This document shows, in pieces, positions 1 through 12,440 of a DNA stretch of 15,007 bases; positions within the stretch are counted from its first letter, which is position 1, and each line of letters starts with the position of its first letter. The stretch is from assembly GCF_946477055.1 (NCBI RefSeq), contig NZ_CAMKXG010000058.1, positions 1-15,007 of the forward strand, read 5' to 3'. Position numbers and translations under genes: made by a program. This DNA is from Lonsdalea britannica. Lineage in GTDB: Bacteria > Pseudomonadota > Gammaproteobacteria > Enterobacterales > Enterobacteriaceae. A model generated the notes under the pieces. The model did not search any database. It was given only the letters and a program-made list of their open reading frames with translations, and was not told the DNA's origin.

Positions 1-47
1 GAGATTCGCCTTAGTCTCGTGGGCTCGGAGATGTGTATAAGAGACAG
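1..47 (+). other. Nextera sequencing adapter (index N701), artefact
   Basis: This is library adapter, not genomic DNA. Bases 1-5 are the end of the Illumina P7 primer (GAGAT). Bases 6-13 are TCGCCTTA, the N701 i7 index as written in the primer. Bases 14-28 are GTCTCGTGGGCTCGG, and bases 29-47 are the 19-bp Tn5 mosaic end AGATGTGTATAAGAGACAG. Genomic sequence starts at about base 48. The contig therefore ends here because of a read that still carried its adapter, and nothing can be inferred about what lies further left. Confidence 0.97.
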
Positions 48-66
48 CCTATAGTGAGTCGTTATT
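48..66 (-). promoter_or_regulatory. T7-type phage RNA polymerase promoter
   Basis: Read on the minus strand this gives AATAACGACTCACTATAGG, with the T7-class core CGACTCACTATAGG intact and +1 at base 49. Specificity bases -12 to -8 are T7-like (CGACTC) rather than T3-like (ACCCTC). Transcription would run leftward into the adapter-truncated end. By position, beyond the repeat-rich segment, it could be the left-end (phiOL-like) promoter of a T7-like genome, but only about 2 bases of transcribed sequence survive. Confidence 0.85.
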
Positions 67-334
67 GTTTGGGCGGCGTCTCTACTGGAGACGGTGCTTA
101 TCAGGGAAGGACTTCTCGTGGTCCAACTTTGGGGAGACCTTTAAAGGGAGCCGCCTCCATTTTTTGGCGTCGGGTTAATCTTTGACCATCTCTTGGAGGC
201 TGACCTTAAGGCGGCTGTCTAAACTACCCCTCATTTCAGGGGGGTAGATTGGTGGCTCCCTTTTGGGGAGACCTTGGAGGCTGACCCACCGTAGCCTTTA
301 GGTCGAGGGTAGTATTGATGATAATCAACCCTCT

Positions 335-373
335 CCTCTCAGGTCCTCTCAGGTCCTCTCAGGTCCTCTCAGG
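335..373. repeat. 10-bp tandem repeat, 4 copies (CCTCTCAGGT)
   Basis: Four head-to-tail copies of CCTCTCAGGT start at 335, 345, 355 and 365; the last is CCTCTCAGGG. It resembles in style the short repeat arrays next to the terminal redundancy of T7-like phages, which are used during concatemer processing. That role is an inference from position. Confidence 0.9.
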
Positions 374-427
374 GCGTTGCTCAGGGCTGACCCATTGTTT
401 GGAGGTAGTGATAATCACAATCACCTC

Positions 428-946
428 CTACTCCATGGTCTCGACAGTAGGTCTCCACTCAGTGGCCTCGGTCAATAGCCACGTGGCCCGCTTGTAGCGA
501 CGCCCTTGGTCGTCCTTCAGGTCCTTATAGACACTACTATCAATAATAGCAATGTCGCCCACCCGGAGACCCGTCTTGGCCCCAGCGTTACTTAAGCGTG
601 CCACGGTGTTGTTCACCGACCATGCCTGAAGGCCAGCAGCGCGAGCCACCTGAGAGCCGACAAAGAGTAACTCGTGGTCGACAGAACGAACACTTTGAGT
701 GTGTATCCCTCTTCCTATAGTGGGCCCAATTAAAAGTCCTTGACGCGGGACTCTAGATATGAACCTGAGGTGACCACTCGGTAGCTCGCTACGCTCTTGG
801 TGGGCATACCCAAGGTTGACCATAAGCCAGTAGCGAGCTAACGCTACGCCAGCTAACAATAGGGCGAGACTGAGCGGACGCCCAAGGCTTGGCCTCCGGC
901 CTCGCAAGGTGCGGAATGACACCTGAAGACTACCTGAGACACTCAA
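428..946 (-). CDS. Doubtful hypothetical protein in the phage end region
   Basis: An open frame of 172 codons from a TTG start. The protein is basic near its N-terminus (RTLRGRRPS) and has one likely membrane helix at about residues 24-45 (LSLALLLAGVALARYWLMV), then a hydrophilic tail without recognised motifs. A short membrane-type gene (19.5) lies downstream of phiOR in T7, so the position is plausible, but I see no real sequence match to it. Neither the TTG start, the GTG 8 codons in, nor the ATG near residue 42 has a good Shine-Dalgarno. The frame overlaps repeat-rich DNA and could be open by chance. A decayed T7 promoter-like string (714-727) lies inside it. Confidence 0.3.
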   Translation of the reverse strand: MSVSGSLQVSFRTLRGRRPSLGRPLSLALLLAGVALARYWLMVNLGYAHQERSELPSGHLRFISRVPRQGLLIGPTIGRGIHTQSVRSVDHELLFVGSQVARAAGLQAWSVNNTVARLSNAGAKTGLRVGDIAIIDSSVYKDLKDDQGRRYKRATWLLTEATEWRPTVETME

Positions 947-1081
947 TGACCATAGTTACTCGGTTCGCTGTAGGAGGGCTTGGAGTGACCTAGAGAGCGT
1001 AGCTGGTACAGCGTAGCGGTCTGCTTGGAGTGACCCTAGAGGTGGGATGATTATTAATTTATCAATCCCAATACTCATGGG

Positions 1082-1117
1082 TCTTTAAGGTCCTTAAGGT
1101 CCTTAAGGTCCTTAAGG
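1082..1117. repeat. 9-bp tandem repeat, 4 copies (TCCTTAAGG)
   Basis: Units start at 1082 (TCTTTAAGG, one change), 1091, 1100 and 1109, and each true copy contains the palindrome CCTTAAGG. A single extra copy sits at 1180-1188, next to CCTAAGG. Between them lies an AT-rich stretch (about 1118-1170). Position between two T7-type promoters and sequence style (compare T7 CCTAAAG) suggest a right-end repeat array of a T7-like genome. Confidence 0.85.
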
Positions 1118-1310
1118 TCTAAAGATTACTTTAAGTATTAAAGACTAATTAAAGATATAAATTAATGATTAACCTAAGGTCCTTAAGGTTAACCCATCCA
1201 GTACCCGAAGCCTCCCTAGAGAGAACTTTACGTGTGCTGTAGCTTTTCTTCAGGCCCATCACCCCCTGAAGCGCTTAGTCGGCCGTATGTATACCTGTGA
1301 GTCTGCATGA

Positions 1311-1345
1311 AGCTGTCGCATAGAGCTGTCGCTTAAAGCTGTCAC
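1311..1345. repeat. 13-bp tandem repeat, 3 copies (core AGCTGTCGC)
   Basis: The core AGCTGTCGC occurs at 1311-1319 and 1324-1332, and AGCTGTCAC at 1337-1345, with an exact 13-bp period. It lies between the T7-type promoter at 1449 and the 9-bp array. Function unknown. It is one of several unrelated tandem arrays packed into this phage end segment. Confidence 0.8.
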
Positions 1346-1394
1346 TAGGTTTGAGTGCATACGGTTCGCTGTTAGTTGAAATAAGAGTTAAGCC

Positions 1395-1410
1395 CAAGGT
1401 CTCCACCTTG
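1395..1410 (-). other. Perfect 6-bp hairpin downstream of the T7-type promoter
   Basis: CAAGGT-CTCC-ACCTTG forms a 6-bp stem with a 4-nt loop about 40-55 nt downstream of the +1 at 1449. There is no U-run after it on the minus strand, so it is not a normal intrinsic terminator. It could be an RNA processing or phage-polymerase pause site, but that is a guess. Confidence 0.45.
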
Positions 1411-1443
1411 AGGTAACGTGTAGGTTGTAGGGCGTAGTCCTCC

Positions 1444-1466
1444 CCTCCCTATAGTGAGTCGTTATT
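1444..1466 (-). promoter_or_regulatory. T7-type phage RNA polymerase promoter (phiOR-like)
   Basis: On the minus strand the core is AATAACGACTCACTATAGGG followed by AGG, with +1 at base 1449. It matches the T7 consensus from -12 to +5. It starts about 45 bp downstream of the integrase stop codon and fires away from it through the repeat-rich segment, as phiOR does at the right end of T7. The same 18-bp core is found again at 48-66. Use requires a cognate single-subunit RNA polymerase, presumably encoded elsewhere in the same prophage. Confidence 0.93.
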
Positions 1467-1510
1467 CATCTTCGCCGAACGTGCAGCTATCGTGCAGGCA
1501 TTAAAAGCAA

Positions 1511-3118
1511 TCAACAAAGGAGACAGCCAGCCAATACACCGCTCAGCTTATCCACCTCGACCTCCTTCGCGTAGCGGTCATAAGTAATCGACCCAGAACT
1601 ATGTCCCAGTATCGCCTGAGCGTATGCCAATTCGATGCCATGCTGTTTTAACTGAGTGGCTACCGTATGCCTGAACGAATGGAAAGCTAAACCGTCCCGC
1701 TCAGTAATCACCTTGGGTAACAACGTTCTGTTAAACCATTTGCTCACCTGTTCGCCATAGCCGTTCTTCATGAGTCGAAGACCATCAAACACCATAGCGT
1801 CATCACCGTCAGACCCTCTACGGGCCTCTACAAGCGCCATAAAATCAGCCAATACGAAACCGTAAGCACCATCAACCAGAGGCACACAGCGATCACTGTG
1901 CGCGTTCTTTATGCTCTTACCCGGCAAGCTGCTATCGTCCTCATTAACGTGGATGTAGACGACCCCTGATTCAGCGGTCCTAACATCCTTTACTTGGAGC
2001 TGTGCTACCTCATTAAGTCTTGCCCCGGTGATTGCAGCTAACGCGGTGACGTAGTAATGATACGGCTTTCCTGATGCTTTCTGAGAGTATGACTTAGCCG
2101 CGACCAGTAGTTGCCCCACCTGCTCCGTAGAGAAAGCGTTACGGGCCTCAGAGGCTTTACGCTGGGGAACCTTCAGTTCCAGCACCTCAGTCATATTCTT
2201 TTTAATCAGGTCATTACGAACAGCCCACTTGAAGACAGCCGCCATCTTGATAAGATATTTATTATTGATGGTGACAACATCCAGACAATCTGTCTTATCA
2301 TCACGGTTCAGTAGGTCAATCAACGTGGCATCCTTGAAGCGCTGCTTACGGTTCTTAGGTAACTCCTGGAGCACATAACGAACTCTAAGTATGTCAGCAC
2401 GTGTTATCGCATTAGCATCATCATTAAGACCAAGATGGTCGAAGATTTCGAGTAACGCAGTATGAGACGCTTTGTTTTCCCTTAAGGTGGCAGGCTTCCA
2501 GTTCTGTGAATTTTCCGCTTCGTATTGCTCAAAAAGGCTCGCTACGGTGACACCGGGTTTAACTTCCGGGGCACCTACAGATAGGGACACAGATGCCTGA
2601 CCATTTAACCTATCAATATCATTAAATTCATCGATGTAATCTATCAGTGGTTTACTGTCTCCCACCTCGATACGCCGCATGCAGGCCCTGATAACTCCCA
2701 AAGCCTCGTGAATGTAGCGATGTTGGTCAATGCTGAGAGGCTCACTGGCGACCGCATCCACAAGATTCTCCCCGAGTTCTCCGTACTGGTCACGATACAG
2801 GTCTCTCATGTCCGACTCAAAGAGGTCTGAACGCCCGGTGGACAATTCCCACTCAGCGATATCCCTAAGGTGCTCCCTCATTTCCTCATAGGAGGCATCG
2901 GGTCTATCTGCTTGTATTGCCTTAAGTGCTGCCTTGATATGTCGTGAGTGAGCCATAGCGGTACGCCGGTCCTTGGTGCGGAGTGAAACTGAAGTCATCT
3001 TATCAATGTTAGTGCCTGATTGTCTGACGCGAATGCGGAAATAGTAGATGCCGCGACGCTGGTAAAGATAGGCGACGACTGGGAGTTTGTGGTCATGGCT
3101 AATGGATAGCTGAATCAT
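1511..3118 (-). CDS. int: Tyrosine recombinase (phage integrase), T7-like side
   Basis: A 535-aa site-specific integrase. Residues about 15-65 form an N-terminal arm-binding-type segment (YQRRGIYYFRIRV, then TKDRRTAMAHSRH). Residues about 190-310 form a core-binding domain, and the catalytic domain follows from about 325. Catalytic residues visible are R367 (ITGARLNE), K404 region, H480 and R483 (HSFRHT), H506 (LGHSS) and a nucleophile, probably Y516 (TYDRY). All are present, so the enzyme should be active. It is unrelated in detail to the P4-type integrase at the other end of the window. It is followed after about 45 bp by a T7-type promoter on the same strand and preceded by repeated GGGTTAC motifs and the tRNA-like att copy. 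I infer that it belongs to a temperate T7-like prophage. It could instead be a remnant of a third element. The Shine-Dalgarno is weak. Confidence 0.93.
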   Translation of the reverse strand: MIQLSISHDHKLPVVAYLYQRRGIYYFRIRVRQSGTNIDKMTSVSLRTKDRRTAMAHSRHIKAALKAIQADRPDASYEEMREHLRDIAEWELSTGRSDLFESDMRDLYRDQYGELGENLVDAVASEPLSIDQHRYIHEALGVIRACMRRIEVGDSKPLIDYIDEFNDIDRLNGQASVSLSVGAPEVKPGVTVASLFEQYEAENSQNWKPATLRENKASHTALLEIFDHLGLNDDANAITRADILRVRYVLQELPKNRKQRFKDATLIDLLNRDDKTDCLDVVTINNKYLIKMAAVFKWAVRNDLIKKNMTEVLELKVPQRKASEARNAFSTEQVGQLLVAAKSYSQKASGKPYHYYVTALAAITGARLNEVAQLQVKDVRTAESGVVYIHVNEDDSSLPGKSIKNAHSDRCVPLVDGAYGFVLADFMALVEARRGSDGDDAMVFDGLRLMKNGYGEQVSKWFNRTLLPKVITERDGLAFHSFRHTVATQLKQHGIELAYAQAILGHSSGSITYDRYAKEVEVDKLSGVLAGCLLC

Positions 3119-3137
3119 CTGTCTGTATGCCCTGATA

Positions 3138-3166
3138 GGGTTACACAGTGGGTTACATTAAGTAAC
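3138..3166. promoter_or_regulatory. GGGTTAC repeats upstream of the integrase gene
   Basis: GGGTTAC at 3138-3144 and 3150-3156 (12-bp spacing) is followed by an inverted GTAAC at 3162-3166, giving the dyad GTTAC-ATTAA-GTAAC. They sit 20-48 bp upstream of the integrase start. They could be arm-type integrase sites or an operator for int. No clear sigma70 promoter was identified. Confidence 0.45.
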
Positions 3167-3221
3167 TCTGCAAGGAGGCATTGAGCCATATCCCTTAGGA
3201 TTCAGTACTTAAGAAAGGTGC

Positions 3222-3244
3222 TGGAGCGGCGAAGGGAGTAGAAC
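3222..3244 (-). repeat. Candidate attachment site: imperfect copy of the tRNA-Gly 3' end
   Basis: Plus strand TGGAGCGGCGAAGGGAGTAG then AAC matches TGGAGCGGGCGAAGGGAATC then GAAC at 14953-14976: 21 of 24 aligned positions, with one missing G and two substitutions. The match runs from the T-loop to the CCA end of the tRNA, the segment that P4-family integrases use. The 8-bp block CGAAGGGA is exact and could be the strand-exchange region. It would delimit an 11.7-kb element, close to P4's 11.6 kb. The indel in the acceptor stem is unusual for a simple att repeat. Confidence 0.6.
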
Positions 3245-3296
3245 TAACTCACACAAAGCCAGTAAATACGGAATACTTTTATTTTTTATCTTGGCA

Positions 3297-3320
3297 CCTA
3301 TACACATTCCTATACACATT
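3297..3320. promoter_or_regulatory. Candidate integrase arm-type sites, left end of satellite
   Basis: The 12-mer CCTATACACATT is repeated exactly twice, head to tail (3297-3308, 3309-3320), about 55-75 bp inside the candidate left att site. The same core (CTATACACA / TGTGTATAG) recurs beside the integrase gene at the other end: 14790-14797, 14819-14827 and 14831-14840. Arm-type integrase sites flank att cores in this way, so this supports the left boundary of the element. Confidence 0.6.
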
Positions 3321-3414
3321 CGGCTCTCGCTAGGGTTGTTTGTACATCCTCCTCCTCTTCGTTGATAGCTTAAACTTCCTTGCCGTAATCTGGCCGCTCT
3401 GCGACTTAATGTAT

Positions 3415-3426
3415 GATAGTGCTATC
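3415..3426 (+). promoter_or_regulatory. Small dyad overlapping a possible -10 box
   Basis: GATAG-TG-CTATC is a perfect 5-bp inverted repeat overlapping TATGAT (3413-3418), a possible -10 box, about 25-35 bp upstream of the plus-strand start at 3450. No good -35 is seen, so an activator or a different promoter is possible. It may be an operator controlling the 3450-3809 gene. Confidence 0.35.
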
Positions 3427-3449
3427 CCACAATAAGGAATCAGCCAGCC

Positions 3450-3809
3450 ATGAGAATGACCAACCGCAAAAAAGAGATACTCAGCTATTTTGAACCGGAT
3501 AACCTCGAATGGGTGACAGGTGAAATTGGTGCGCCGCCGTTCGATGTGTCGGGCGTGGCCTACCTGCTTCATGGCATTGTGTCGTTCGATAAGCGCCACC
3601 AGCTAGAATCAACCCGGCGTACGTTGGAAAGCATGGTTGCTGGTGGGCTGCTGGAGCGTGTAACAGTGTATGAGTCGCGTCAGGTACGGCGCGGCGGTGA
3701 AACCAATGCAATGGTCGTGCGCTACGGTTTACCCGGTCAGTGCGCTGTTATGCGCGATACTGGCGGCGCTGATAACGCAATATCGGGCGAATACATGCGG
3801 GTCAGTTAA
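3450..3809 (+). CDS. Hypothetical small winged-helix-like protein
   Basis: 119 aa, the only confident plus-strand gene in the satellite. The start is supported by AAGGA 10 nt upstream. The pattern RKKEILSYF, then a helix, STRRTLESMVAGGLLERV, a basic hairpin (SRQVRRGGET) and VVRYGL resembles a winged-helix DNA-binding fold. I recognise no named family. Its last 8 bp overlap convergently the end of the gene at 3802-4344. At this place, far from the integrase and next to the att site, P4 relatives carry helper-interaction or accessory genes, so a transcriptional regulator is a reasonable but unproven guess. Confidence 0.7.
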   Translation: MRMTNRKKEILSYFEPDNLEWVTGEIGAPPFDVSGVAYLLHGIVSFDKRHQLESTRRTLESMVAGGLLERVTVYESRQVRRGGETNAMVVRYGLPGQCAVMRDTGGADNAISGEYMRVS

Positions 3810-4344
3810 GAGCCTGCAATCTGTCGTTAATGTTGTTCAGGTCGTAAATCCGGCGTTCAATATCCAGCATCAGAAAATTGTGGATCTCGGTCCGTCCAGG
3901 ATTATCAGACTCTCTGGCCTGTAAGAGCAATTCATTGTAACCATGCAAACCACCGGAATTTTCTGCCGGGGTGGTGCCTTTCCCACGCAGACAGCTAATG
4001 GGCTGTTTACTGGTATCGTGTGTTTGCTTCTCGAGCACAACAAGACAATCCCACCAGTCGCCAAAGTCATACGTGTAAACCAGCTTGTCACCATCATTCT
4101 GGAGCGCTGCCCATAGTGGTGTGATTGCCGCATTACCCATGCTTTCATCCTCACCCCATACGCGATACTCGCTACCGGGATCACCTTTACGCCCTTTCTC
4201 GAACATATACAGGTGTTCGTCATTCCAGCCAAAAGCCAATTGGATCACCGCGTGAAGTTTACTAAAGGGGATTTGCTCTGGAACCAGCACACGCCGCCAT
4301 ATTGGTGGTTTGCTGTCTCGGATGGTTATCTTTAGCTGGTACAT
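3802..4344 (-). CDS. pRiA4b ORF-3 family protein
   Basis: 180 aa, recognised from the start YQLKITIRDSKPPIWRRVLV, then FSKLHAVIQLAFGW and LYMFE, then YTYDFGDWWDCLVVLE, the conserved blocks of the plasmid pRiA4b ORF-3 family (PF07929). The molecular function of that family is not firmly known to me. The frame is open 16 codons further upstream, but ATG 4344 is preferred because AGGA lies 5 nt before it and the family similarity begins there. It converges with the plus-strand gene at 3450-3809, overlapping by 8 bp. It is common in mobile elements and is probably an accessory gene here. Confidence 0.88.
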   Translation of the reverse strand: MYQLKITIRDSKPPIWRRVLVPEQIPFSKLHAVIQLAFGWNDEHLYMFEKGRKGDPGSEYRVWGEDESMGNAAITPLWAALQNDGDKLVYTYDFGDWWDCLVVLEKQTHDTSKQPISCLRGKGTTPAENSGGLHGYNELLLQARESDNPGRTEIHNFLMLDIERRIYDLNNINDRLQALN

Positions 4345-4464
4345 GCAAATCCTGAATAAATGCGAATCGGGAGGATAACGATACTGACGCACTCACAATT
4401 CTGTAAAGATGAATAAAGGTAATTTGCTTAATACGCATAAGTTACATGCGGAATAATCCCGTAT

Positions 4465-4650
4465 CTACCTGCGTGGCGTTGGCTTCTTCCACTGGTAGAC
4501 GGGTGATCGCATCATTTCGCGGAATTTGTCACGCCGGGCTATATCGGCATTAACTGAGCGTTCTATCTCCCGTTGATCTGCCGGGGTAAGCTGGTGGCCT
4601 TCGTGCTCCAATTTGGCGGTGGTCAATAAAGCTATTTCGCGTGGTGTCAT
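4465..4650 (-). CDS. Hypothetical 61-aa protein
   Basis: A short, charged, mostly helical protein starting MTPREIALLTTAKLEHEG and ending in basic residues (YQWKKPTPRR). No recognised domain. AAGGG lies 8-9 nt before ATG 4650, within one arm of a perfect 6-bp hairpin (4658-4672) that may hide the ribosome site. It lies between the pRiA4b-type gene and the lipoprotein partner gene, with its own 158-bp upstream gap, so it may be transcribed separately. Confidence 0.6.
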   Translation of the reverse strand: MTPREIALLTTAKLEHEGHQLTPADQREIERSVNADIARRDKFREMMRSPVYQWKKPTPRR

Positions 4651-4657
4651 ACGTCAT

Positions 4658-4672
4658 ACCCTTTTGAAGGGT
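4658..4672 (-). promoter_or_regulatory. Hairpin covering the ribosome site of the 61-aa gene
   Basis: ACCCTT-CAA-AAGGGT on the minus strand is a perfect 6-bp stem with a 3-nt loop. Its 3' arm is the only Shine-Dalgarno-like sequence for ATG 4650. It could restrain translation unless opened. Confidence 0.45.
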
Positions 4673-4721
4673 GAAACACGCCCGAATTAAATTTCATTTT
4701 TCGCGGGTATAAAAATTTAAC

Positions 4722-4751
4722 GGGGCGGGCAGTACGGAAGGGGCTCGCCCC
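4722..4751. other. GC-rich inverted repeat in the 4651-4808 gap
   Basis: GGGGCG (4722-4727) and CGCCCC (4746-4751) flank an 18-nt centre. A CCTCCCCCTCCC run (4772-4783) follows. The preceding bases are very AT-rich (4683-4720). There is no U-run on either strand, so it is not an intrinsic terminator. It does not match the P2/P4 cos sequence I know. Function unknown. Confidence 0.35.
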
Positions 4752-4808
4752 CAGAGATTTACCTCCCCCTCCCAGTAGGCAGGTTTCGGATACTGTCCAA
4801 CATACTAG

Positions 4809-5504
4809 CTAAAGCGAGCTTTTTTTCGCCCCTTCAATCTCTGCTTTGCAAACATCGTTATTGCTGAAGCTATACTGAAGGAAAATATACCCCTGCTCGG
4901 AGCCATCTGCTCTAGCTTCGATTGATACGGATATAAGGTTATTTTTCAGAGGCTTATATTTGGTTCCTTTCCATTCCGCTGACAGGAATCGCTCCTTTTT
5001 ATTCAAGGACATCATCCAGTATTTGGGCTCTTTCCAAATTGAACCAGATATTAAAAAATCATTTTTATCAGCGTTGCCATAGATAGAAGATAGTGAGTCG
5101 CTGAGTTCCTCATATTTGGATTTTAAGGCAATGCCAAAACTATCAGTATCAATGCTTTTACCCACGGCCCTGATTTGACATAGGCCAGCATTTGGAGAGA
5201 TTAAAAGCCCGTATGCCTCGAAGTCAGCATTCTTTTTTGGCAACGATTCAGATGTATAAAGGTCAGCACTATTTGCTACCGGTTTAAGATCTTCGCCGGT
5301 CATATCTTCAATGTTCTTTTTAGATAACCCTGCTTCCAAACCAAACGGCCCTTCGCCCGGTGGCAGCAATGGTGCGTTTGTGGCAACTAGCGCTGTTTTT
5401 TGTGGTTGTTTAGCCGTAACGTCCGTACTGGCCTGCTCAATGAGAACTTTGACTTCTGCCAATCCATACTTAGCCGAAAGATATCGCTGTTGTAGCATCG
5501 CCAT
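4809..5504 (-). CDS. Hypothetical protein, partner of a lipoprotein
   Basis: 231 aa from ATG 5504, chosen because AGGA lies 7 nt before it. An upstream GTG at 5543 has no ribosome site. No signal peptide or membrane helix is visible. The body has a glycine/proline-rich entry (PPGEGPFGLEAGLS), then FEAYGLLISPNAGLCQIRAVGK, a KYEELSDSLSSIYG helix, and a C-terminal beta-rich part (WMMSLNKKERFLSAEW, GYIFLQYSF). Two cysteines (in GLCQI and DVCKAE) could form a disulphide. I do not recognise a named family. It follows the lipoprotein gene by about 44 bp on the same strand, and the two probably form an operon. Base composition is lower in GC than the primase. Confidence 0.75.
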   Translation of the reverse strand: MAMLQQRYLSAKYGLAEVKVLIEQASTDVTAKQPQKTALVATNAPLLPPGEGPFGLEAGLSKKNIEDMTGEDLKPVANSADLYTSESLPKKNADFEAYGLLISPNAGLCQIRAVGKSIDTDSFGIALKSKYEELSDSLSSIYGNADKNDFLISGSIWKEPKYWMMSLNKKERFLSAEWKGTKYKPLKNNLISVSIEARADGSEQGYIFLQYSFSNNDVCKAEIEGAKKSSL

Positions 5505-5548
5505 TGTCTGTTCCTGAGTCGCAACAGTAGACAGCTTCAGCACCTGGA

Positions 5549-5947
5549 TTAGACCACCGCTGTATTGGCTTGCTTCATTTTTTGCATTGCCGATTTGGAC
5601 AGTAAGCTTATCAATTTCGTTTTTAATGCCGCCGCCGCCTCTGAATTTGGTTTAACACCAGTAATGGTTAAATCAATCTTAGCGCCCGACTCGATAGCAT
5701 TGATACGCTGCTCTAATAGCGCCTTATTCGTTCCCAGCACTTCAAGCCTGGCAGTTGTGAGGTTTTTGATTAGCCCACCTGTGAATTGACTTTGCTGCTC
5801 TGTCGCTTGAGCTATTTCTTTTTCCGTCTGCGAAAGCTCACTTTTAAGACTGCTTACTTCCTGCTTTTGCTCAGGGGTTAATTTCTTTGGGCCACAACCA
5901 GTCAAAAGAGTGGCAGCAATAACGCACGCTGAAATTGTTTTTTTCAT
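5549..5947 (-). CDS. Small lipoprotein with a coiled coil
   Basis: 132 aa. The N-terminus MKKTISACVIAATLLTGCG is a type II signal peptide with lipobox LLTG-C18, so Cys18 should be lipidated after cleavage. G19 and P20 follow, with no aspartate at +2, which favours export to the outer membrane. Residues about 28-60 form a coiled coil (PEQKQEVSSLKSELSQTEKEIAQATEQQ), followed by a second helical stretch and a small polar tail. The frame is open 16 codons further upstream, but that extension would disrupt the signal peptide, so ATG 5947 is preferred. It is the first gene of a pair with 4809-5504. Such envelope cargo in a satellite could alter phage adsorption or entry, but that is inference. Confidence 0.8.
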   Translation of the reverse strand: MKKTISACVIAATLLTGCGPKKLTPEQKQEVSSLKSELSQTEKEIAQATEQQSQFTGGLIKNLTTARLEVLGTNKALLEQRINAIESGAKIDLTITGVKPNSEAAAALKTKLISLLSKSAMQKMKQANTAVV

Positions 5948-6051
5948 GTCCCTATTCCCGTTAGTAATATTCGGATTAATCCTAGCACGCAGCAATTTAC
6001 CCGTCAGTTGCCTAAGTTCAAAACCGACTCAATGCTTCTATATAAGTAAAA

Positions 6052-6316
6052 AGGTGTTGGTTCAGTTGGTTCAGTTGGTTCACTGGGCTACAGGCCGCGC
6101 CAGCACTGGGTTTTACTGAACCAACATTGACGTTTTTTTGTTGGTTCAGCAGGGGTAAATGTTGGTTCACTCCCAGCAAGAGAAAAGCTCTAAATTTTTG
6201 TGTTGGTTCAAAACGGGCATATGTTGGTTCAGTGTTGGTTCACTTTTTGAAATAAATCCCTTAAAAATCAATAGATATAAATCATTGAACCAACTGAACC
6301 AACTGAACCAACACCT
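6052..6316. repeat. Iteron array, candidate satellite replication origin
   Basis: Twelve exact copies of the 9-mer GTTGGTTCA. Three forward in tandem start at 6056, 6065 and 6074. One reverse is at 6117. Five forward are at 6140, 6161, 6202, 6223 and 6234, with spacings of 21, 41, 21 and 11 bp (near whole helical turns). Three reverse in tandem are at 6286, 6295 and 6304. The outer triplets form a 31-bp perfect inverted repeat (6052-6082 with 6286-6316). An AT-rich block (about 6243-6285) sits beside the right triplet and could be the unwinding site. In P4 the alpha primase-helicase binds its own iterons at ori and crr. Here the array is just downstream of the alpha-type gene, so it is the likely origin. 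Confidence 0.88.
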
Positions 6317-6338
6317 AAACTACGCATGTGAGATAAAA

Positions 6339-9098
6339 TTATTCTTCTGGCTGGTCGCTTTCGTCTGGAATGAAGTTGAGGACGTAAACGCGAATTTGTC
6401 GGCCACCAATGCGAGGTGATTTTCGCTGATAGCCTCTATCACTGGTCGGCGGCGTCAGCATCCCAGCATTTTTAAGCACCTCAGCGAACTGTTTGGGATT
6501 GAACCCGCTAGCTATCTCCTGCTCAAACGTTGAAGGGAAGGTATAGAAAACAATCGGATCGCCGTCATGGCTGCCGCTGGTGCGGTAACCTGCCATATCT
6601 CGGATAGGCAATGACTGCGGGTCATAAGGGAATGGGGCGAACCGGCTCAGACCATTGGCATTAAGAAATGCCTCGCACTGCTCAATGATCTGCTGATGTT
6701 CTTTGTTGCCCGTGCCGAACTCACGCAGCCAGGCATTGTAGCTGTGCTGTATCGCATCACGGCATGTCTGAGCATCCCACCCGGTGACAACCTCACCCAG
6801 CAGCAAAGCAGCCTCTAGAATGGCAAAGCGTGCGGCCACGCGGTGTACCTGCTCGCCATAGTCCGCAGGGATAAGGCTGCGCCAGCGGGATTCACACTCA
6901 CGCACGGTATCAACCGCCTGCTGCTGGTGGACTGCCAGCCACTTGATCCACTCCCGCCCTGCAGCACCATGATGGTGCTGGTAAGCGTCTTTCAGCGCGT
7001 CGGCGTGCTGTTTGCCGTTCTGGTGGTCATGGAAGCGCACCGCCTTACTCAGCGGGATATTCAGCAGGCGCACCAGTTGCCCGGCTTTGATCTTGCGCCC
7101 AGCGGTGGCTATAAAGGTTTCTAAGTCCATTTCCCCGGTACTGATCGCCACGGTGCGCCAGCGCTTTAAATCACGGTTGCCCCCCTCTTTTGCTCCCTGC
7201 AATTTCCCCACGCCGTTAAACAGCGTATAGGCAGACTGTGACACGCTTACCGGGTCAGCCCCTTGTCCGACTTCATCCAGTGGCATCAGCCCGTCATTGT
7301 GTGCTGCGGCTTCGTTTGCCAGTCCCAGTGCCGTGCCGTACCACGTCAAGCGTAGTAAGTCCGGGTTGCCGTATAAGCTGCTCGCCACGTTCGCAGTGGT
7401 GGTTTTACCCGCGCTCGACTGTTCATAGAAATGAATGCCGAACCCATCAGCGCCAGCCAGCCCGATTAACGGTGCTGCCAATGCGGCGGCAATGCCTGTC
7501 ATCATCGAGTAGTTACCGTATGCCAGACGCGCAACACTCTTACGCCAGCGCTCTGAGGTTCCTGCTACGGTGTACCCGGCGGCAGCAGAACTGCGGCCAC
7601 TGAATAAAACGGGTTGTGCAGGTGCGCCGATTATTTCCCCGTCTGGCATGATGTATGCCCCGCACTGCCAGCCAGTAGCATGAGAAACACGCCACAATAC
7701 ACGCGAGCCGCTACGCTGTAGCCAGTCGGCCAAGATCGCCCTCAGGCTACTTTTGGTGGTAACGTTAATCCCGCCCGCTTTCAGAGTGCGCCAGCCCTCA
7801 CGTTCGCCAATGTCAGCTAGGGGGATCGCGGCTGTCGTCAGCGCATTAGCACCGAATGCCTGCCAGCGGATAATCAGGTACTGGTCTTTATCATCCCGGC
7901 CAGTACCTACAACATCCAGCGGTGAGCATAGCCACGCATCGTGGTTGATAACCTCGCCGCTGTCTTTGTCCACCTTAGGCGTGATCCAGTAAACACCATC
8001 GCTACGGCTTTCAATGTGAGGTTTTAGCGGATCTTTCTCTGGCTGGCCGGATTTACCACCCCTGATGGCCTGTAGCTGCGGTTTCACGTTATCCCCCTGC
8101 GGCGGGTATATCGAATCGTTAAAAGCGGCTGTAGCAGCCTCCAGGCCGTTTTTCTGGTGGTAGTCGTTCCAGTCGGCTTTATAGTCTGTTGGAGGCACGG
8201 CAACATAGCCCGCCACGGCAGAAGCGGCCTTCTCTGCCCGTTCCGTGCCGGTATTGGGCTTGTCGTCCAGTCGGTCATTATCAGCGGCAATGATGATCTG
8301 CGCCTCTGGATACTGCTGGCGCATAAACTCCGCCACTGGCAGCAGGTTGCCCGCATCAATGGCGCACACTGTCAGTGCGTCAGGGCGCATCAGGTGAGCG
8401 GATAAAGTCGTTGCCAGCCCTTCGGCAATGATCACCTCCTGCGGCTGTTCCGGTGCGTTAACAGCGTGATATGCCCCGCGCTTTGCTGAACCGGTCAGGA
8501 GTCGTTTATCTCCCTGTGGGGTGATGGTCTGCGCTGCCACCACTGCGCCGGATTCATCTACCAGCGGCAGGAGCAACGAACCATCGGACATAACCGGGTA
8601 ATTAAACCCGGTCAGCCCTTTTGATTGCAGGTAATCAGATTCGCCCTGTGTGACGCTCTGGCGCATTCCGGCATACAGACGGGTAAACGTAGCCCTTCGT
8701 TGCGCTGCGTCATCTGCTGCCTGTTGCTGGCGCTCCTGCTCACGCTGCTGTCGGTCAGCTTCCAGTTGCTCCCTTCTCTGGCTCGCTGCCGCCGGGTCGG
8801 TTTGCGCTGCACGGTGATCAATACCCAGCACGTCAGCCGCAAGCTGTGCCGCCTCCGTGGTGTCGCAGTTGTTCACGTTCTTAATCAGGTCTAAGCCGTC
8901 GCCAGCACCACACTGGTTGCAGATAAAGCTGCCGCGCCCGTTATCATCGAACCGGAAGCGATCCGTACCGCCACATGCAGGGCAGGGGACATGGCGGAGT
9001 GATGAATCAGGCACGTCGATAGACAGGCCAGCCAGCACATAAGGCCAGTTACCGGCGGCGGCGGCGCTCACTTCGCGGATAAGGTCGATATTACGCAT
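6339..9098 (-). CDS. P4 alpha-type primase-helicase
   Basis: 919 aa, the replication protein of the satellite. Residues 39-63 form a zinc ribbon (C39, C42, C60, C63). A Q/E/R-rich charged linker (about 107-135) follows. A TOPRIM primase domain has E226 (IIAEGLA) and D273/D275 (AADND). From about 360 comes a DUF927-type helicase domain with Walker A SSAGKTTT (K565) and Walker B MPLDEVGQG. The last about 150 residues may hold the origin-binding part. It should synthesise primers, unwind DNA and recognise the iterons at 6052-6316. The frame is open 11 codons further upstream, but ATG 9098 has an AGGGGG ribosome site and overlaps the preceding small gene by 8 bp, typical of translational coupling. 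Length compares with 777 aa for P4 alpha. High GC, unlike the cargo genes. Confidence 0.95.
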   Translation of the reverse strand: MRNIDLIREVSAAAAGNWPYVLAGLSIDVPDSSLRHVPCPACGGTDRFRFDDNGRGSFICNQCGAGDGLDLIKNVNNCDTTEAAQLAADVLGIDHRAAQTDPAAASQRREQLEADRQQREQERQQQAADDAAQRRATFTRLYAGMRQSVTQGESDYLQSKGLTGFNYPVMSDGSLLLPLVDESGAVVAAQTITPQGDKRLLTGSAKRGAYHAVNAPEQPQEVIIAEGLATTLSAHLMRPDALTVCAIDAGNLLPVAEFMRQQYPEAQIIIAADNDRLDDKPNTGTERAEKAASAVAGYVAVPPTDYKADWNDYHQKNGLEAATAAFNDSIYPPQGDNVKPQLQAIRGGKSGQPEKDPLKPHIESRSDGVYWITPKVDKDSGEVINHDAWLCSPLDVVGTGRDDKDQYLIIRWQAFGANALTTAAIPLADIGEREGWRTLKAGGINVTTKSSLRAILADWLQRSGSRVLWRVSHATGWQCGAYIMPDGEIIGAPAQPVLFSGRSSAAAGYTVAGTSERWRKSVARLAYGNYSMMTGIAAALAAPLIGLAGADGFGIHFYEQSSAGKTTTANVASSLYGNPDLLRLTWYGTALGLANEAAAHNDGLMPLDEVGQGADPVSVSQSAYTLFNGVGKLQGAKEGGNRDLKRWRTVAISTGEMDLETFIATAGRKIKAGQLVRLLNIPLSKAVRFHDHQNGKQHADALKDAYQHHHGAAGREWIKWLAVHQQQAVDTVRECESRWRSLIPADYGEQVHRVAARFAILEAALLLGEVVTGWDAQTCRDAIQHSYNAWLREFGTGNKEHQQIIEQCEAFLNANGLSRFAPFPYDPQSLPIRDMAGYRTSGSHDGDPIVFYTFPSTFEQEIASGFNPKQFAEVLKNAGMLTPPTSDRGYQRKSPRIGGRQIRVYVLNFIPDESDQPEE

Positions 9099-9261
9099 GA
9101 TTGCCCCCTGCCACGGTCGCGCCCATATCATTAACCATGCTTTGCCATATCTCGCGCCCAGTATCAGTCAGGCCACCAGCATTAATAGCCGTGATGTGAT
9201 TGTAAAGTGCCGCCGCGTACTGGTTCGCCAGCGCATTTAGTCGGAAGTTTTTGGTAATCAT
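9091..9261 (-). CDS. Small hypothetical protein before the primase
   Basis: A 56-aa frame starting MITKNFRLNALANQYAAALY and ending VAGGNHA. GAGGGG lies about 6 nt before ATG 9261. It begins 9 bp after the preceding gene and overlaps the primase start by 8 bp, so it fits tightly in the operon. No known domain; predicted helical. P4 relatives carry comparable small genes in the same place. It is too short for routine gene finding and may be missed. Confidence 0.65.
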   Translation of the reverse strand: MITKNFRLNALANQYAAALYNHITAINAGGLTDTGREIWQSMVNDMGATVAGGNHA

Positions 9262-9270
9262 GTTGCCCCC

Positions 9271-9897
9271 TCAGTGCGCCGCTGGCATTTCAGGCCAGCC
9301 GTTTTCATCCAGATCGGCAATGAAGTGATCGTGTAGCTCTGCCAGCGTTTCACGTCCGAACGGGGTCAGCTCACCGCGCTCCGCATCCAGCATGGCCTGA
9401 TAGAACACAATGGCGTTCTCCGCCCCCTGTTCAGCGCCGTAGCGCTCAATCAGTGCGCCCTCAATGTTGTTCGCCATCGCCAGCCGTTCAGCAAACGGGT
9501 AAACCACAATGCCCGCTGTGCCATTGGAGTAAATCGCTACCTGCGATGATGTGCCGTCTGGTTCAGTGACCGTGGCCGTGCCGTTCTCGTGCTTCATCTC
9601 AGAAACGAACGTCGCAGCAATCAGCCAGCGCCACATAGTGATGTTTTGCTGCGCGGTGAAATCGAACCAGCCACGCGCCCCGCCGTCAGCCACTGCAAAA
9701 TACAGGGCAAAACCTTCATCGGGGATTTCGTCATACCTGCCAATATCGAGATGAGTTACCGCATCTGAATAGGGAACAAGGCAAACATGCTCATACATCC
9801 CGGCATCGTTGCGGATCATTATGTTTACGCCGTACGGTGTGGCTTCGGCGTGGAACATGTCGGGATTATCCGTCTTTAATGTCAGTACGTTGTTCAT
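9271..9897 (-). CDS. Conserved-looking satellite protein of unknown function
   Basis: 208 aa, acidic, with no signal peptide or membrane helix. It starts MNNVLTLKTDNPDMFHAEA. A central part (YFAVADGGARGWFDFTAQQNI) and a helical C-terminal third (GALIERYGAEQGAENAIVF, ETLAELHDHFIADLDENG) are visible. I do not recognise a family. It overlaps the upstream gene by 4 bp (ATGA) and is followed 9 bp later by the 56-aa gene, so it belongs to the replication operon leading to the primase, in the position of the small genes (epsilon, orf106, orf151) between kil and alpha in P4. It could be a regulator or replication accessory; neither is shown by sequence. Confidence 0.75.
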   Translation of the reverse strand: MNNVLTLKTDNPDMFHAEATPYGVNIMIRNDAGMYEHVCLVPYSDAVTHLDIGRYDEIPDEGFALYFAVADGGARGWFDFTAQQNITMWRWLIAATFVSEMKHENGTATVTEPDGTSSQVAIYSNGTAGIVVYPFAERLAMANNIEGALIERYGAEQGAENAIVFYQAMLDAERGELTPFGRETLAELHDHFIADLDENGWPEMPAAH

Positions 9898-10115
9898 GCT
9901 TTCCCCTCCCTGTATTCACGCATTACATGGTCAGCCAGTTTGCTTTCAGCCTCGTTCATTGCTTCGGGTACACCGTGTAACAACGTCAGAATGGAACCAA
10001 TCAGGCGCGGTAAATCGGGATCTGTTTTATTGGTGGTGCTTTCCAGCCACATGGACAAAACAGCCTGCGCTTGTTCAATCTGACAGGTGGCATCAATTAG
10101 TTGTAACTGGCTCAT
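9894..10115 (-). CDS. Small hypothetical protein, replication operon
   Basis: 73 aa, helical, starting MSQLQLIDATCQIEQAQAV and ending REYREGKA. It overlaps both neighbours by 4 bp (ATGA at each junction), a strong sign that it is a real gene translated by coupling. No domain recognised. By position it corresponds to one of the short early genes of P4-type elements. Confidence 0.7.
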   Translation of the reverse strand: MSQLQLIDATCQIEQAQAVLSMWLESTTNKTDPDLPRLIGSILTLLHGVPEAMNEAESKLADHVMREYREGKA

Positions 10116-10375
10116 ACGCTGGCCTCCGCATCAATCCTGGCTATATCGACAATCGTCATGACTTCACTCAACCAGCAATGCACGATAGCGGCCTGTTCAT
10201 CGTCGAGTTGAGTGGCTAAATCGGTCATAACGTGAGCCAACCCATTGCGGGCGCGGGTCATACGTTCTGCTGTACGCTCTGCCAGCGTAAAATCATCCGG
10301 GTAAGCCTGCTCGCGGGATAACATCGCTTCGGCTTCAAGCTCGGACGGATGGCGGCATAAGGCGTTAATGTTCAT
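10112..10375 (-). CDS. Small hypothetical protein, replication operon
   Basis: 87 aa, acidic and helical (SELEAEAMLSREQAYPDDF, AERTAERMTRARNGLAHVM), ending DIARIDAEASV. The start ATG overlaps the stop of the Ash/Icd-type frame by 4 bp, and GGAGGTGG lies just upstream of it. It overlaps the next gene by 4 bp. Function unknown. The paired helices would suit a small dimeric regulator, but nothing diagnostic is seen. Confidence 0.7.
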   Translation of the reverse strand: MNINALCRHPSELEAEAMLSREQAYPDDFTLAERTAERMTRARNGLAHVMTDLATQLDDEQAAIVHCWLSEVMTIVDIARIDAEASV

Positions 10376-11184
10376 GCTGCCACCTCCAGACGGATACAGC
10401 CTGCAAAGAAACAGACGTGATCCCGTGCCAGCGTGCGGCGAGCTTCGCGTTCAGACGCTGCGGCGATATGGTGAATTTTGGCGGTAATTGTCGGCATATC
10501 GCGTCGAACGGCTGCGATTAGCCAGATGACTTGCGGATTTTTGGTAGGGGTAGTAGCCATGATGGCAGCCTCTATACAGTGAATTTTTAATTCACCACCA
10601 AGAGACGCCAATCTCAGACTGGTGGTGAGCTGAACAAGGTTGGCGTAACCGGCCTGTATAGACACCGGCCTTCCTTTCGGAAGCCTCATCCAGCCCACCA
10701 TAATTTGGATGCGCAGGAATTTTGCCGACAAAAAAACACGCTTAGTGCGTGTCGGCACTATACAGGTTACCGGGACGCCAATCCCGACACCAGATTTTGC
10801 TGGTGCGCTATAACCATAAACCGGGTTGGCGATAGTCGGCAAGCCCTTTTTTATGGAGTCCGAAAACTCCCCGCGCGTACTGGTCTCGAAACTCTCCTCG
10901 TCACCACGACGAGAAAATGAGGGGTTGGCATTAGCTGGCATTGTTATGCGAGTTTTCACCCCATGCGACTCAGGTTTTTTCAGGTTCGAAATGTCGTCAT
11001 TTGTCATCATCGCCCGGCGCTGAATGTGAGGTTTTGTGAGGCTCTCACTTGGTTTTGCTAAGCCCCGAACCATAACAATTGATAACAATCTGCCGTTCGC
11101 TGTATTAGGTTTTATTAGGTTCTGAGGGCTAACATTTGCTAACAGGCTAGCCAAGGGAAAGTCTTTATCCTGGACGGCGAGCAT
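10372..11184 (-). CDS. Ash/Icd-like (host cell division inhibitor-like) protein with a long leader frame
   Basis: The recognisable domain is the last 62 residues (ATG 10560, with GAGG 8 nt upstream). It begins MATTPTKNPQVIWLIAAV and continues through REARRTLARDHVCFFAGCIR, typical of the Ash/Icd-like family (PF10554) of P4-type elements, linked in P4 relatives to Kil/Icd-type division inhibition. The same frame stays open upstream for another 208 codons to ATG 11184, which overlaps the bro stop (TAATG) and has GGAGG 7 nt before it; a GTG/ATG further up lies inside bro. The long form would run straight through the immunity hairpins and an intrinsic terminator at 10730-10752. Either the 62-aa product alone is made, or the leader frame is translated and its ribosomes influence the RNA switch. 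The short product is the safer call. Confidence 0.65.
   Translation of the reverse strand: MLAVQDKDFPLASLLANVSPQNLIKPNTANGRLLSIVMVRGLAKPSESLTKPHIQRRAMMTNDDISNLKKPESHGVKTRITMPANANPSFSRRGDEESFETSTRGEFSDSIKKGLPTIANPVYGYSAPAKSGVGIGVPVTCIVPTRTKRVFLSAKFLRIQIMVGWMRLPKGRPVSIQAGYANLVQLTTSLRLASLGGELKIHCIEAAIMATTPTKNPQVIWLIAAVRRDMPTITAKIHHIAAASEREARRTLARDHVCFFAGCIRLEVAA
10579..10628 (-). promoter_or_regulatory. Mutually exclusive hairpins before the Ash/Icd start
   Basis: Arms 10592-10600 and 10620-10628 (TCACCACCA / TGGTGGTGA) form a 9-bp stem enclosing the hairpin GAGA-TTGGCG-TCTC (10602-10615). A second perfect hairpin, GTGAATT-AAA-AATTCAC (10579-10595), shares bases 10592-10595 with it, so not all pairs can form at once. 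Both lie just upstream of the ribosome site for ATG 10560. This layout suits a translation or transcription switch governed by a trans RNA that binds the TTGGCG loop. Confidence 0.6.
10730..10752 (-). terminator. Intrinsic terminator in the immunity region
   Basis: On the minus strand ACACGC-ACTAA-GCGTGT is followed by seven T. Flanking GTCGG and CCGAC could extend it. It lies within the Ash/Icd leader frame, immediately after the candidate CI-like RNA. In P4, transcription from the early promoter stops at such a terminator in the immune state. Confidence 0.85.
10730..10831 (-). ncRNA. Candidate CI-like antisense immunity RNA of P4 type
   Basis: The minus strand reads CGCCAA (part of ATCGCCAACCCGG, 10824-10832), hairpin CACCAG-CAAAAT-CTGGTG, hairpin CGGGA-TTGGCG-TCCCG (10771-10786), then the terminator. 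GGTTA/TAACC (10765-10769, 10811-10815) could close the set into a compact RNA of about 85 nt; P4 CI is about 70 nt. The exposed loop TTGGCG is complementary to CGCCAA both upstream (10826-10831) and downstream (10641-10646), like P4 seqB pairing with seqA and seqC. Ends are approximate. No sequence identity to P4 CI is claimed; the call rests on architecture and gene order. Confidence 0.6.
10855..10913 (-). promoter_or_regulatory. Two hairpins at the head of the immunity region
   Basis: CTCGTC-GTGGT-GACGAG (about 10897-10913) and GGAGT-TTTCGG-ACTCC (10855-10870) are perfect stems in the minus-strand transcript, placed between the direct-repeat array and the CI-like RNA. They may isolate or present the downstream RNA. 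No function is known. Confidence 0.45.
10925..11144. repeat. Alternating array of 10-bp-period direct repeat pairs
   Basis: Seven pairs of 7-9-bp direct repeats, each with an exact 10-bp period, start on the plus strand at 10926/10936 (TGGCATT), 10971/10981 (CAGGTT), 10992/11002 (TGTCRTCAT), 11025/11035 (TGTGAGG), 11072/11082 (ATAACAAT), 11103/11113 (TATTAGGTT) and 11128/11138 (GCTAACA). They alternate between two types. On the minus strand one type is TGNNADC-NAW-TGNNADC, the other GARCCTNANAAAACCTNA. The variable bases are the same, or nearly so, in both halves of each pair. The array lies between bro and the CI-like RNA, inside the Ash/Icd leader frame. Function unknown. Confidence 0.8.
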
Positions 11185-11771
11185 TAGTGAACCTCCGGTA
11201 ATTGAGGTTGATACTTGCGCCATAACTCAGCTTCTTCGGCGATTAGGTGGGATTTCTCACCTTTGCAGGCTTGCAGGTCTTTACCGCGCTTACTGGCCTT
11301 CTTGATATATGCTGCTTGCCGTTTACTGTGGTCGTTCAGGAAAGCGAACGGCACACCGTAGGCGCCGGTTTTACGAATAGACGGGATAACCTCACGGAAT
11401 ACCCAGTTAGTGAACCGGTGTGCGAATGTGCCGGGTGTGGTCGCTTTGCGGCTGCGGGCGATCAGTTTGTAGAAACCAGACTCGCATACTGTACGCATAA
11501 CCTGGCTGCCGCCGGGGGTAGGTGTTAAACACTCCCCCTTCTCATCTCCGTCTAATCGACGTAATGCGACTTTGTGATCGGAAATTTCCAGCGCCTCACA
11601 AATATCTTTGGCAATAAACCAAGGCTCGCCGCAGAGACTGACGATTCGCACCGACTTACCCTCGAATTTAATCACCGAAATATTATCCTTATCAGCGGTG
11701 AAAATAGCAGCCATGCCGGTGGTGGGCTGTGGGGCGGCCTCAGAAATTAATCTGCTTTTTTCAGTTTTCAT
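11184..11771 (-). CDS. BRO-type antirepressor protein
   Basis: 195 aa. Residues about 40-135 match the Bro-N domain: VRIVSLCGEPWFIAKDICEAL, then RRLDGDEKGECLTPTPGG, an ESGFYKLIARSR helix, and FAHRFTNWVFREVIPSIRKTGAYG. Such proteins bind DNA and act in phages as antirepressors or regulators. The C-terminal 60 residues are basic and helical (KRQAAYIKKASKRGKDLQACKG). GGAG lies 8 nt before ATG 11771, and the gene follows the 139-aa gene by 13 bp. Its stop overlaps an ATG of the Ash/Icd leader frame. Standing between alpA and the immunity region, it may help switch the satellite out of its quiet state; that role is inferred. Confidence 0.9.
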   Translation of the reverse strand: MKTEKSRLISEAAPQPTTGMAAIFTADKDNISVIKFEGKSVRIVSLCGEPWFIAKDICEALEISDHKVALRRLDGDEKGECLTPTPGGSQVMRTVCESGFYKLIARSRKATTPGTFAHRFTNWVFREVIPSIRKTGAYGVPFAFLNDHSKRQAAYIKKASKRGKDLQACKGEKSHLIAEEAELWRKYQPQLPEVH

Positions 11772-11784
11772 TTGTCAGGCTCCG

Positions 11785-12204
11785 TTAAGCAGCGTTGAAC
11801 GCATCCGGGTAGAGGGAAAGAATGTCGTTAATCTCATACTGAGACAGGCCGACATAACCACCAGCAGCGGCATTGTTATTGACCAGTTGAATCACTCGCA
11901 TCACATCAGCGCGGCAGGTGATCCGGTAACGGAAGTGGCTACCGATGCCATCACCGTTAGGCTCGTCGATGCGCTCCAGCTGAATATCAAGCCTTCTTTC
12001 CAGCTCTGTCGCGTAATTACGGGCGCTGGACAAGCGGCAGTAGCGTAGGATTTCATTCTCAGTGAAGCCATTAACGCCGGTACGCATCATGTAGACGCGA
12101 GCGCGGTGTTTCTTTGGGATTGGCTTAATGACTGCGGCAGACGTAATATCAGAGGCGTCAGCTCCCTGATTAGCCGTCTGTAATGGGCGGTTTTTCTTTT
12201 CCAT
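11785..12204 (-). CDS. Hypothetical protein with a possible winged-helix core
   Basis: 139 aa from ATG 12204, which overlaps the alpA stop as TGATG and has GAGGTGG upstream. A GTG one codon earlier is possible. The N-terminal 35 residues are polar and look disordered. The core GFTENEILRYCRLSSARNYATELERRLDI followed by a strand pair (QLERIDEP, HFRYRITCRADVMRVIQLV) resembles a helix-turn-helix plus wing as found in small phage regulators. I cannot assign a family. Tight coupling to alpA suggests a regulatory partner. Confidence 0.75.
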   Translation of the reverse strand: MEKKNRPLQTANQGADASDITSAAVIKPIPKKHRARVYMMRTGVNGFTENEILRYCRLSSARNYATELERRLDIQLERIDEPNGDGIGSHFRYRITCRADVMRVIQLVNNNAAAGGYVGLSQYEINDILSLYPDAFNAA

Positions 12205-12215
12205 CACGCCACCTC
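12199..12215. repeat. 17-bp direct repeat, copy 1
   Basis: TTCCATCACGCCACCTC here and TTCCATTACGCCACCTC at 13424-13440 differ at one base. Each covers a start codon and its GAGGTGG ribosome site (the 139-aa gene here, the 308-aa gene there). The two copies bracket the 308-aa gene plus alpA, which may reflect how the cargo gene entered the element. Confidence 0.65.
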
Positions 12216-12401: not shown

Positions 12402-12407
12402 TTGAAA

Positions 12408-12440
12408 TGCTCCTGTAGTTGATTGGCGTCTACAGGAGCA
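12408..12440 (-). promoter_or_regulatory. Perfect hairpin masking the alpA ribosome site
   Basis: Arms 12430-12440 and 12408-12418 (TGCTCCTGTAG / CTACAGGAGCA on the minus strand) pair over 11 bp with an 11-nt loop. The 3' arm contains the AGGAG used by alpA. As DNA it could also be an operator; as RNA it would block ribosome entry until opened. The 5' arm plus loop contain GTAGACG, the heptamer also found near the integrase. Confidence 0.8.

Follow-up and report, generated by a model that had tools for sequence, protein, structure and literature searches.

The DNA analysed here, referred to as the window, is a stretch of 15,007 nucleotides from Lonsdalea britannica (contig NZ_CAMKXG010000058.1). 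It contains a tyrosine integrase gene followed by T7-type promoters on the same strand, at one end of a mobile element that runs from about position 3244 leftwards and off the contig. The first 3.2 kb of this element, from 48 to about 3244 at its integrase end, are visible (Table 1).

An integrase joined to T7-type promoters

The pair of T7-class promoters in the same direction that a first-pass annotation had reported is real. The 19-mer AATAACGACTCACTATAGG occurs twice on the minus strand, at 48-66 and at 1448-1466; it differs from the T7 consensus by three mismatches, and none of 200 shuffles contained two matches. Because bases 1-47 are adapter, presumably of the Nextera i7 type, the contig end truncates the left promoter at about +2. 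The tyrosine integrase beside the other promoter was confirmed as well, with a gap of 44 bp between its stop and the promoter; by motif, its key residues are probably R367, H480 and R483, with Y513 or Y516 as the putative nucleophile. The DNA between the promoters had been described as repeat-rich and non-coding. The repeats were recovered, but the region is not wholly non-coding, since the open reading frame (ORF) at 428-946 contains a phage-like segment. Residues 90-165 had protein matches in 17 phage records (E limit 1; best E 2e-5), mostly of Klebsiella phages of about 40 kb, and the ORF matched fetched phage pieces with E values of 1.7e-9 and 2.6e-8. In the pairwise alignment, this segment is missing from the closest relative.

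That relative (locus L054/L057 of genome G752, probably a Lonsdalea) has an integrase gene 91% identical to that of the window over 1,475 bp of DNA, and the two integrases pair in a tree of 18 integrases with a support of 99/99. Its non-coding block is 73% identical to that of the window over 691 columns, with identical runs of about 38-56 bases. One of the identical runs in the window could form a hairpin, CTTCAGG...CCTGAAG, as seen by eye. The same junction between integrase and block is present in L054, and therefore the join at 1440-1520, which the earlier annotation had allowed might be chimeric, is not a chimera. For the locus as a whole, an assembly chimera of phage and host reads is hardly credible: the adapter at the contig end and the 19-bp repeat bounding the region 48-1466 on either side would fit one, but the junction recurs in an independent genome, promoters follow the integrase in other relatives, and only the outermost copy at 48-66 is without support from a relative.

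Table 1. Features of the window
Feature	Position	Strand	Remarks
Sequencing adapter, untrimmed, non-biological	1-47		Mosaic end AGATGTGTATAAGAGACAG at 29, index-like stretch before it
T7-type promoter, third in the reading order of the element	48-66	minus	Cut by the contig end
Tandem 10-bp repeats of the AGGTCCTCTC type	334-373		Repeat family D3
ORF	428-946	minus	Residues 90-165 (about 452-679) similar to the N-terminal portion of early proteins ('Ant' or hypothetical) from T7-like phages
T7-family promoter, second, other specificity	about 711-735	minus	GGGCCCACTATAGGAAG; site TTAATTGGGCCCACTATAGGAAGAGG
Conserved non-coding block, runs identical to L054	817-1437	minus	Candidate cis region for replication/packaging
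AT-rich stretch with CTTAAGGAC repeats	1077-1190		Weak resemblance to the AT-rich part of a T7-like origin; repeat families D1 and D2
T7-type promoter, first	1438-1466	minus	phiOR-like start (GGGAGGGGAGGAC)
Tyrosine integrase, 535 aa	1511-3118	minus	Pfam Phage_integrase, E 7.1e-18
Degenerate copy of tRNA-Gly 3' end	3222-3244	minus	Likely attachment (att) site between the element and its P4-like neighbour
P4-like element, neighbour at the same tRNA-Gly	3245-14950
P4-like element, PRiA4 ORF3-like	3802-4392
P4-like element, primase	6339-9131		PHROG 1139, E 2e-175
P4-like element, Bro-N antirepressor	11184-11771
P4-like element, AlpA-like gene	12204-12401		Assigned by eye
P4-like element, integrase, 404 aa	13574-14788
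tRNA-Gly (CCC), 3' part	14951-15007	minus	Attachment site; last 55 bases identical (55/55) to tRNA-Gly of L054

Because the P4-like element sits between 3222-3244 and 14951-15007, two mobile elements lie in tandem at one tRNA-Gly. The match between the window and E. coli ends at about 3244, coinciding with the tRNA-Gly of the E. coli loci. Compared with phage records, the non-coding DNA of the window gave nothing at E 1e-5; at E 10, short pieces were matched in 252 records, promoter-sized ones being included among the best 25 of these 252. Two conserved runs of the block had no exact match in IMG/VR, a 221-bp piece of it matched no plasmid, and a scan with the block of 295 genomes from the family of G001 produced a single match, about 50 bp long (E 7.4e-4). 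The resemblance to Cutibacterium phages over 51 bp at about 1093-1143 (84%, E 2e-5, CTTAAGG repeats) was taken as a probable repeat coincidence, and an Rfam match to MIR7993 was rejected, its score being far under the gathering threshold.

Distribution of the integrase and linkage to promoters

Relatives of the integrase numbered 16 in a scan of species genomes, at 64-83% identity over the best segments, and five in IMG/VR. Some match to 1440-3440 was found in 613 of 5,426 complete E. coli genomes (L001 and L002 are two of them), and at least 80% of this region was covered in 113. ARAGORN located a tRNA-Gly at 19 of 23 loci, as the sole tRNA gene at 15 and within a tRNA cluster at four. The integrase is a member of a tRNA-Gly-associated family in Enterobacterales. 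Related integrases were detected in 12 phage records; the five covered to at least 80% belong to Pseudomonas phages with genomes of about 40 kb and integrases 30-32% identical, and two of the five are records of one phage. The T7-like phage 3MF5, classed in Studiervirinae, carries at its right end an integrase 31.6% identical to that of the window.

Four of the 23 integrase-led loci (L019, L021, L025 and L026) were left out because the integrase is cut or partial. In the remaining 19, a T7-family pattern, composed after some sites had been seen, gave 47 sites; each lies on the strand of the integrase, no more than 1.5 kb downstream of it, and the rest of the same loci (756,528 strand-bp) had none. 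Every one of these 19 relatives, which include near-copies (L002/L006, L022-L024, L013/L015 and L014/L017), has such promoters 97-1,265 bp downstream of the integrase. The plain core, CACTATAGGG or CACTAAAGGG, whose count is less exposed to bias, was found at 37 sites inside (16 of 19 loci) and nowhere else; CACTATAGGGA with one mismatch was found at 42 sites inside (17 of 19 loci). This bears out the association of the integrase with the T7-type promoters as parts of a mobile element tied to T7-like phages.

Promoter specificities vary within and between elements and were assigned by eye as T7-like, K11-like and T3-like. For the Klebsiella pneumoniae element L006, promoter-sized matches were obtained in 656 phage records at an E limit of 10, with 382 from Klebsiella phages and 165 from Escherichia phages, and one of its promoters equals promoters of phage Kp9 letter for letter over 25 bases. 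When element promoters were compared with five phage sequences, the right-end promoter was the best match in most comparisons, namely phiOR of T7 and 64795_ec1 and the last promoters of Kp9 and 3MF5; in L024, an internal phage promoter ties with the right-end one. A second promoter group lies 460-630 bp further on in nine of the 19 loci. The idea that the window shows two T7-like genome ends joined may therefore hold in function, given the phiOR-like promoters and this second group, but does not hold in the sense of a T7-like prophage. Of the promoter-like sites in the element of G752, four lie on the strand of the integrase and one, weaker, on the opposite strand. Three perfect T7-type promoters in tandem, spaced by about 120 bp, were observed behind the integrase in L023 and L024. 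Among 5,426 complete E. coli genomes, 110 carry no less than 80% of one module with T7-type promoters.

Gene content of the related elements

The nine att-bounded elements with a capsid gene measure 6,160-6,447 bp (mean 6,364, standard deviation 86). This set leaves out L007 (4,379 bp) and L016 (5,452 bp), neither of which has a capsid gene, and L009 and L017, where one att copy was missed; G752 is treated apart. Gene order is integrase, variable slot, promoters, a regulator of the Ant/Rha/KilA-N type, a protein of about 65 aa, a scaffold-like protein (DUF6971 in one branch), capsid protein and att, with a membrane protein sometimes present between the 65-aa and scaffold-like proteins. In the 6.4-kb elements, ORFs above 200 aa encode the integrase, a DUF4145 protein, the regulator and the capsid protein; L017 has an extra frame of 212 aa, an extension of its scaffold-like ORF. 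As these elements contain no further long ORF, there is no room for a portal or large terminase gene. In L016, a DUF4236 protein (12933-14132) and an ORF that by eye is serine-recombinase-like (about 14620-15210) stand in place of the capsid gene.

The slot gene for the DUF4145 protein overlaps or abuts the integrase gene in many relatives, and all six DUF4145 slot proteins tested match the PADLOC model of the defence system PD-T7-4, compared with none of four other slot proteins. PD-T7-4 lies upstream of the promoters and is not under their control. In the window's element, the slot is without a gene.

An HK97 fold was predicted for the capsid protein of the relatives. The capsid profile was also run on genomes picked without regard to the integrase. 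At the level of the order, 2 of 394 had it, G001 being one; in the genus of G004 the count was 3 of 25 with G004 included, in the genus of G014 it was 0 of 7, and in the family of G008 it was 9 of 392, of which several were known before. The distribution of the gene is widespread and patchy. Six further loci were obtained from the capsid profile alone (L052-L056 and L042), after leaving out L037-L039 and L041, which are fragments or contigs starting past the integrase, and genomes already counted. All six have an integrase upstream, and five have a promoter of the same pattern between integrase and capsid gene, with two strays elsewhere. The integrases of L042 and L056 are divergent (28-31% identical to that of the window), and that of L056 is split. 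In L041, where the integrase end is off the contig, and in L042, the regulator-scaffold-capsid module was seen by eye to lie beside a dmsA-like gene instead of tRNA-Gly; the divergent relative L056 lies beside a fabA-like gene (by eye).

The element of G752 spans 12,486 bp between att copies, about twice the common size, and contains a regulator, a scaffold-like protein, a capsid protein and a T7 gp16-like internal virion protein. The gp16-like gene occupies two overlapping frames, the first matching PHROG 342 (E 7.6e-177) with an SLT domain. Perhaps this double-size element is an intermediate between satellite and phage.

Search for phage genes and origin-like DNA

Is the element a prophage? 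The first-pass annotation had proposed a temperate T7-like prophage. With 30 proteins of 3MF5 as tblastn queries against all fetched relatives, and 18 of Kp9 against eight of them, no RNA polymerase, DNA polymerase, portal, terminase or tail gene was found in the relatives, nor was a T7-type capsid gene matched. Besides integrases, the only match was the gp16-like virion protein in one relative; G752 had no other match to 3MF5 or Kp9 proteins apart from its integrase. No single-subunit RNA polymerase occurs among the ten longest ORFs of the window, in which 3.2 kb of the element are visible. The proposal fails on these absences and on the 6.2-6.4 kb of the capsid-bearing elements, and we consider it very improbable. 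It does have precedent, as integrase-bearing temperate T7-like phages such as 3MF5 exist, and temperate features are described for the T7-like phage LUZ100 (PMC10134795). However, the measured elements are 4.4-6.4 kb, the largest being 12.5 kb, and the integrase of 3MF5 runs against the phage promoters, whereas in the present element both point the same way.

Decayed T7-like prophages whose remnants persist by chance would be consistent with the two-frame integrases of L020 and L056, the overlapping frames of the gp16-like gene and the insertion sequences inside the E. coli element L001. We see a slim chance of this, because gene order, intact frames and the size of 6.2-6.4 kb recur across several Enterobacterales families, and the capsid protein is not recognisable as a T7 capsid by sequence.

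Origin-like DNA was sought in 15 elements with three queries (the AT-rich region of 64795_ec1 and two DNAs behind phiOL) and 100 shuffles each. We take the AT-rich region that follows the phi1.1-type promoter in 64795_ec1 to be at the position of the T7 primary origin. Its alignment gave z scores of 17.7 in L006, 10.5 in L008, 6.3 in L024, 6.0 in L007, 5.3 in L014, 5.0 in L054 (one of 100 shuffles as high) and 3.8 in the window (none of 100). In L009, L010, L012, L013, L015, L016, L018 and L020, the score was reached by at least three of 100 shuffles. The phiOL-flank queries scored high in L024 and L012 (both) and in L009 (that of T7).

A probable satellite of virulent T7-like phages

With a probability of roughly 0.7, bases 48 to about 3244 belong to an integrative satellite of virulent T7-like phages, of which they form the integrase end. 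Observed here are the integrase, the att sites, the linkage to promoters, the predicted capsid fold, the PD-T7-4 match, the uniform size and the absence of other phage genes. Induction, replication and packaging of the element are suggested by these sequence features, and the rest of the window's element is probably like that of its relatives. The element would reside in the 3' end of tRNA-Gly. On infection by a T7-like phage, the phage RNA polymerase, which uninfected cells lack, would read the copied promoters, often of several specificities, and transcribe the late genes for the regulator, the scaffold-like protein and the HK97-fold capsid protein. Replication would probably be primed at the promoters and the AT-rich origin mimics. 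The element would next be moved by the terminase, portal, internal proteins and tail of the helper, in particles whose capsid protein is the element's own, and in many relatives the PD-T7-4 slot may curb T7-like phages. Members without a capsid gene may use the shell of the helper or may have decayed. Uniform size together with an own capsid gene suggests packaging in a dedicated shell; more speculatively, six times 6.36 kb is near the length of a T7-like genome, so that multimers in a normal head are possible.

Several observations weigh against this interpretation. The visible part of the window has neither a capsid gene nor PD-T7-4, and a helper phage with the conserved block of the window was not found in phage records or IMG/VR. 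Half of the elements show a weak origin-like signal or none, and that of the window is weak. Capsid models are of modest confidence (pLDDT 67 and 72, TM 0.2-0.4); searches of Pfam, PDB sequences and 50,697 phage records gave no significant match to the protein, and its best PHROG is a head-decoration family (E 0.019). The capsid profile was detected in nine of 16 integrase-bearing genomes and in none of five virus records, most of them short; of the misses, L007 and L016 are att-bounded, and others are cut or decayed. Among the six capsid-led loci, the plain core gave a promoter in three, and none elsewhere, so that three are without one, and L052 has no promoter at the stringency used. Finally, CACTATAGGGA with one mismatch gave two strays in the 19 integrase-led loci and four in the capsid-led ones.

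Seven of the 16 genomes are thus without a capsid gene, as would be expected of a phage-triggered defence island, whose promoters would be infection sensors only and which would move by its integrase alone, with no packaging. PD-T7-4 in many relatives and the several promoter specificities per element, which suit a sensor, point the same way. Such an island is unlikely in our judgement, because scaffold-like and HK97-fold capsid genes are conserved where present, a gp16-like protein occurs in one relative, origin-like DNA in some elements and uniform size point to a particle, and PD-T7-4 is placed upstream of the promoters, not under them. Beyond the window, and with somewhat less assurance than for the locus itself, we favour a widespread, undescribed satellite family of virulent T7-like phages in Enterobacterales. 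Its copied RNA-polymerase promoters of multiple specificities would sense infection, switch on the late genes and act as origin of replication, and the family would have a small capsid of its own and PD-T7-4 as helper interference.

Relation to known systems

Phage satellites in general comprise an integrase and an att-bounded element without a full set of phage genes. This is the composition found in the relatives; the window shows one end. The likeness to cf-PICIs, for example EcCI2, is an own HK97-fold major capsid protein, predicted here in relatives, present in nine of 16 genomes and not visible in the window. cf-PICIs have their own portal and packaging genes and are larger, whereas the present elements are smaller, carry only capsid and scaffold-like genes, have promoters for phage RNA polymerase, and would have a virulent T7-like helper. 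P4-like satellites are likewise tRNA-borne, and one is in tandem at the same tRNA-Gly in the window. They differ by their P4-type primase: no ORF in the T7-type elements is as long as a P4-type alpha primase/helicase, and the primase in the window belongs to the neighbour. In addition, the P4-like integrase is at most 21% identical to the present integrase family.

Satellites of virulent phages (PICMI and PLE) and capsid-forming satellites (cf-PICI) are already known (PMC11389934, PMC10803314). PICMIs are, like the present elements, small satellites of virulent phages with reduced gene content; they lie beside fis in Vibrionaceae and have no capsid-remodelling genes (PMC10803314). The present elements differ in their tRNA-Gly site, their Enterobacterales hosts, their T7-type promoters and, in many cases, their own capsid gene. 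3MF5 and LUZ100 resemble them in having an integrase and phage-type promoters. Unlike them, 3MF5 is a complete phage of 41.6 kb with its own RNA polymerase, and LUZ100 also encodes its own RNA polymerase (PMC10134795). The DUF4145 gene of the relatives matches PD-T7-4 (Vassallo 2022), which the accessible part of PMC9519451 does not place in a satellite. A 2023 study of E. coli defence islands suggested that integrase-only defence islands may represent satellites not yet characterised (PMC10121019). In the literature searched, to which bioRxiv and most subscription papers did not belong, there was no satellite of T7, none linked to T7-like phages and none using phage RNA polymerase promoters. 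There is a good chance that the elements described here are a new satellite family.

Implications

T7 is among the best-studied viruses, and a satellite that reads its RNA polymerase would, if true, be a very clean and testable system. PD-T7-4 would then be a satellite gene instead of a stand-alone immune gene, which would explain its origin. The same interpretation would also explain why T7-type promoters, presumably silent, occur in bacterial chromosomes.

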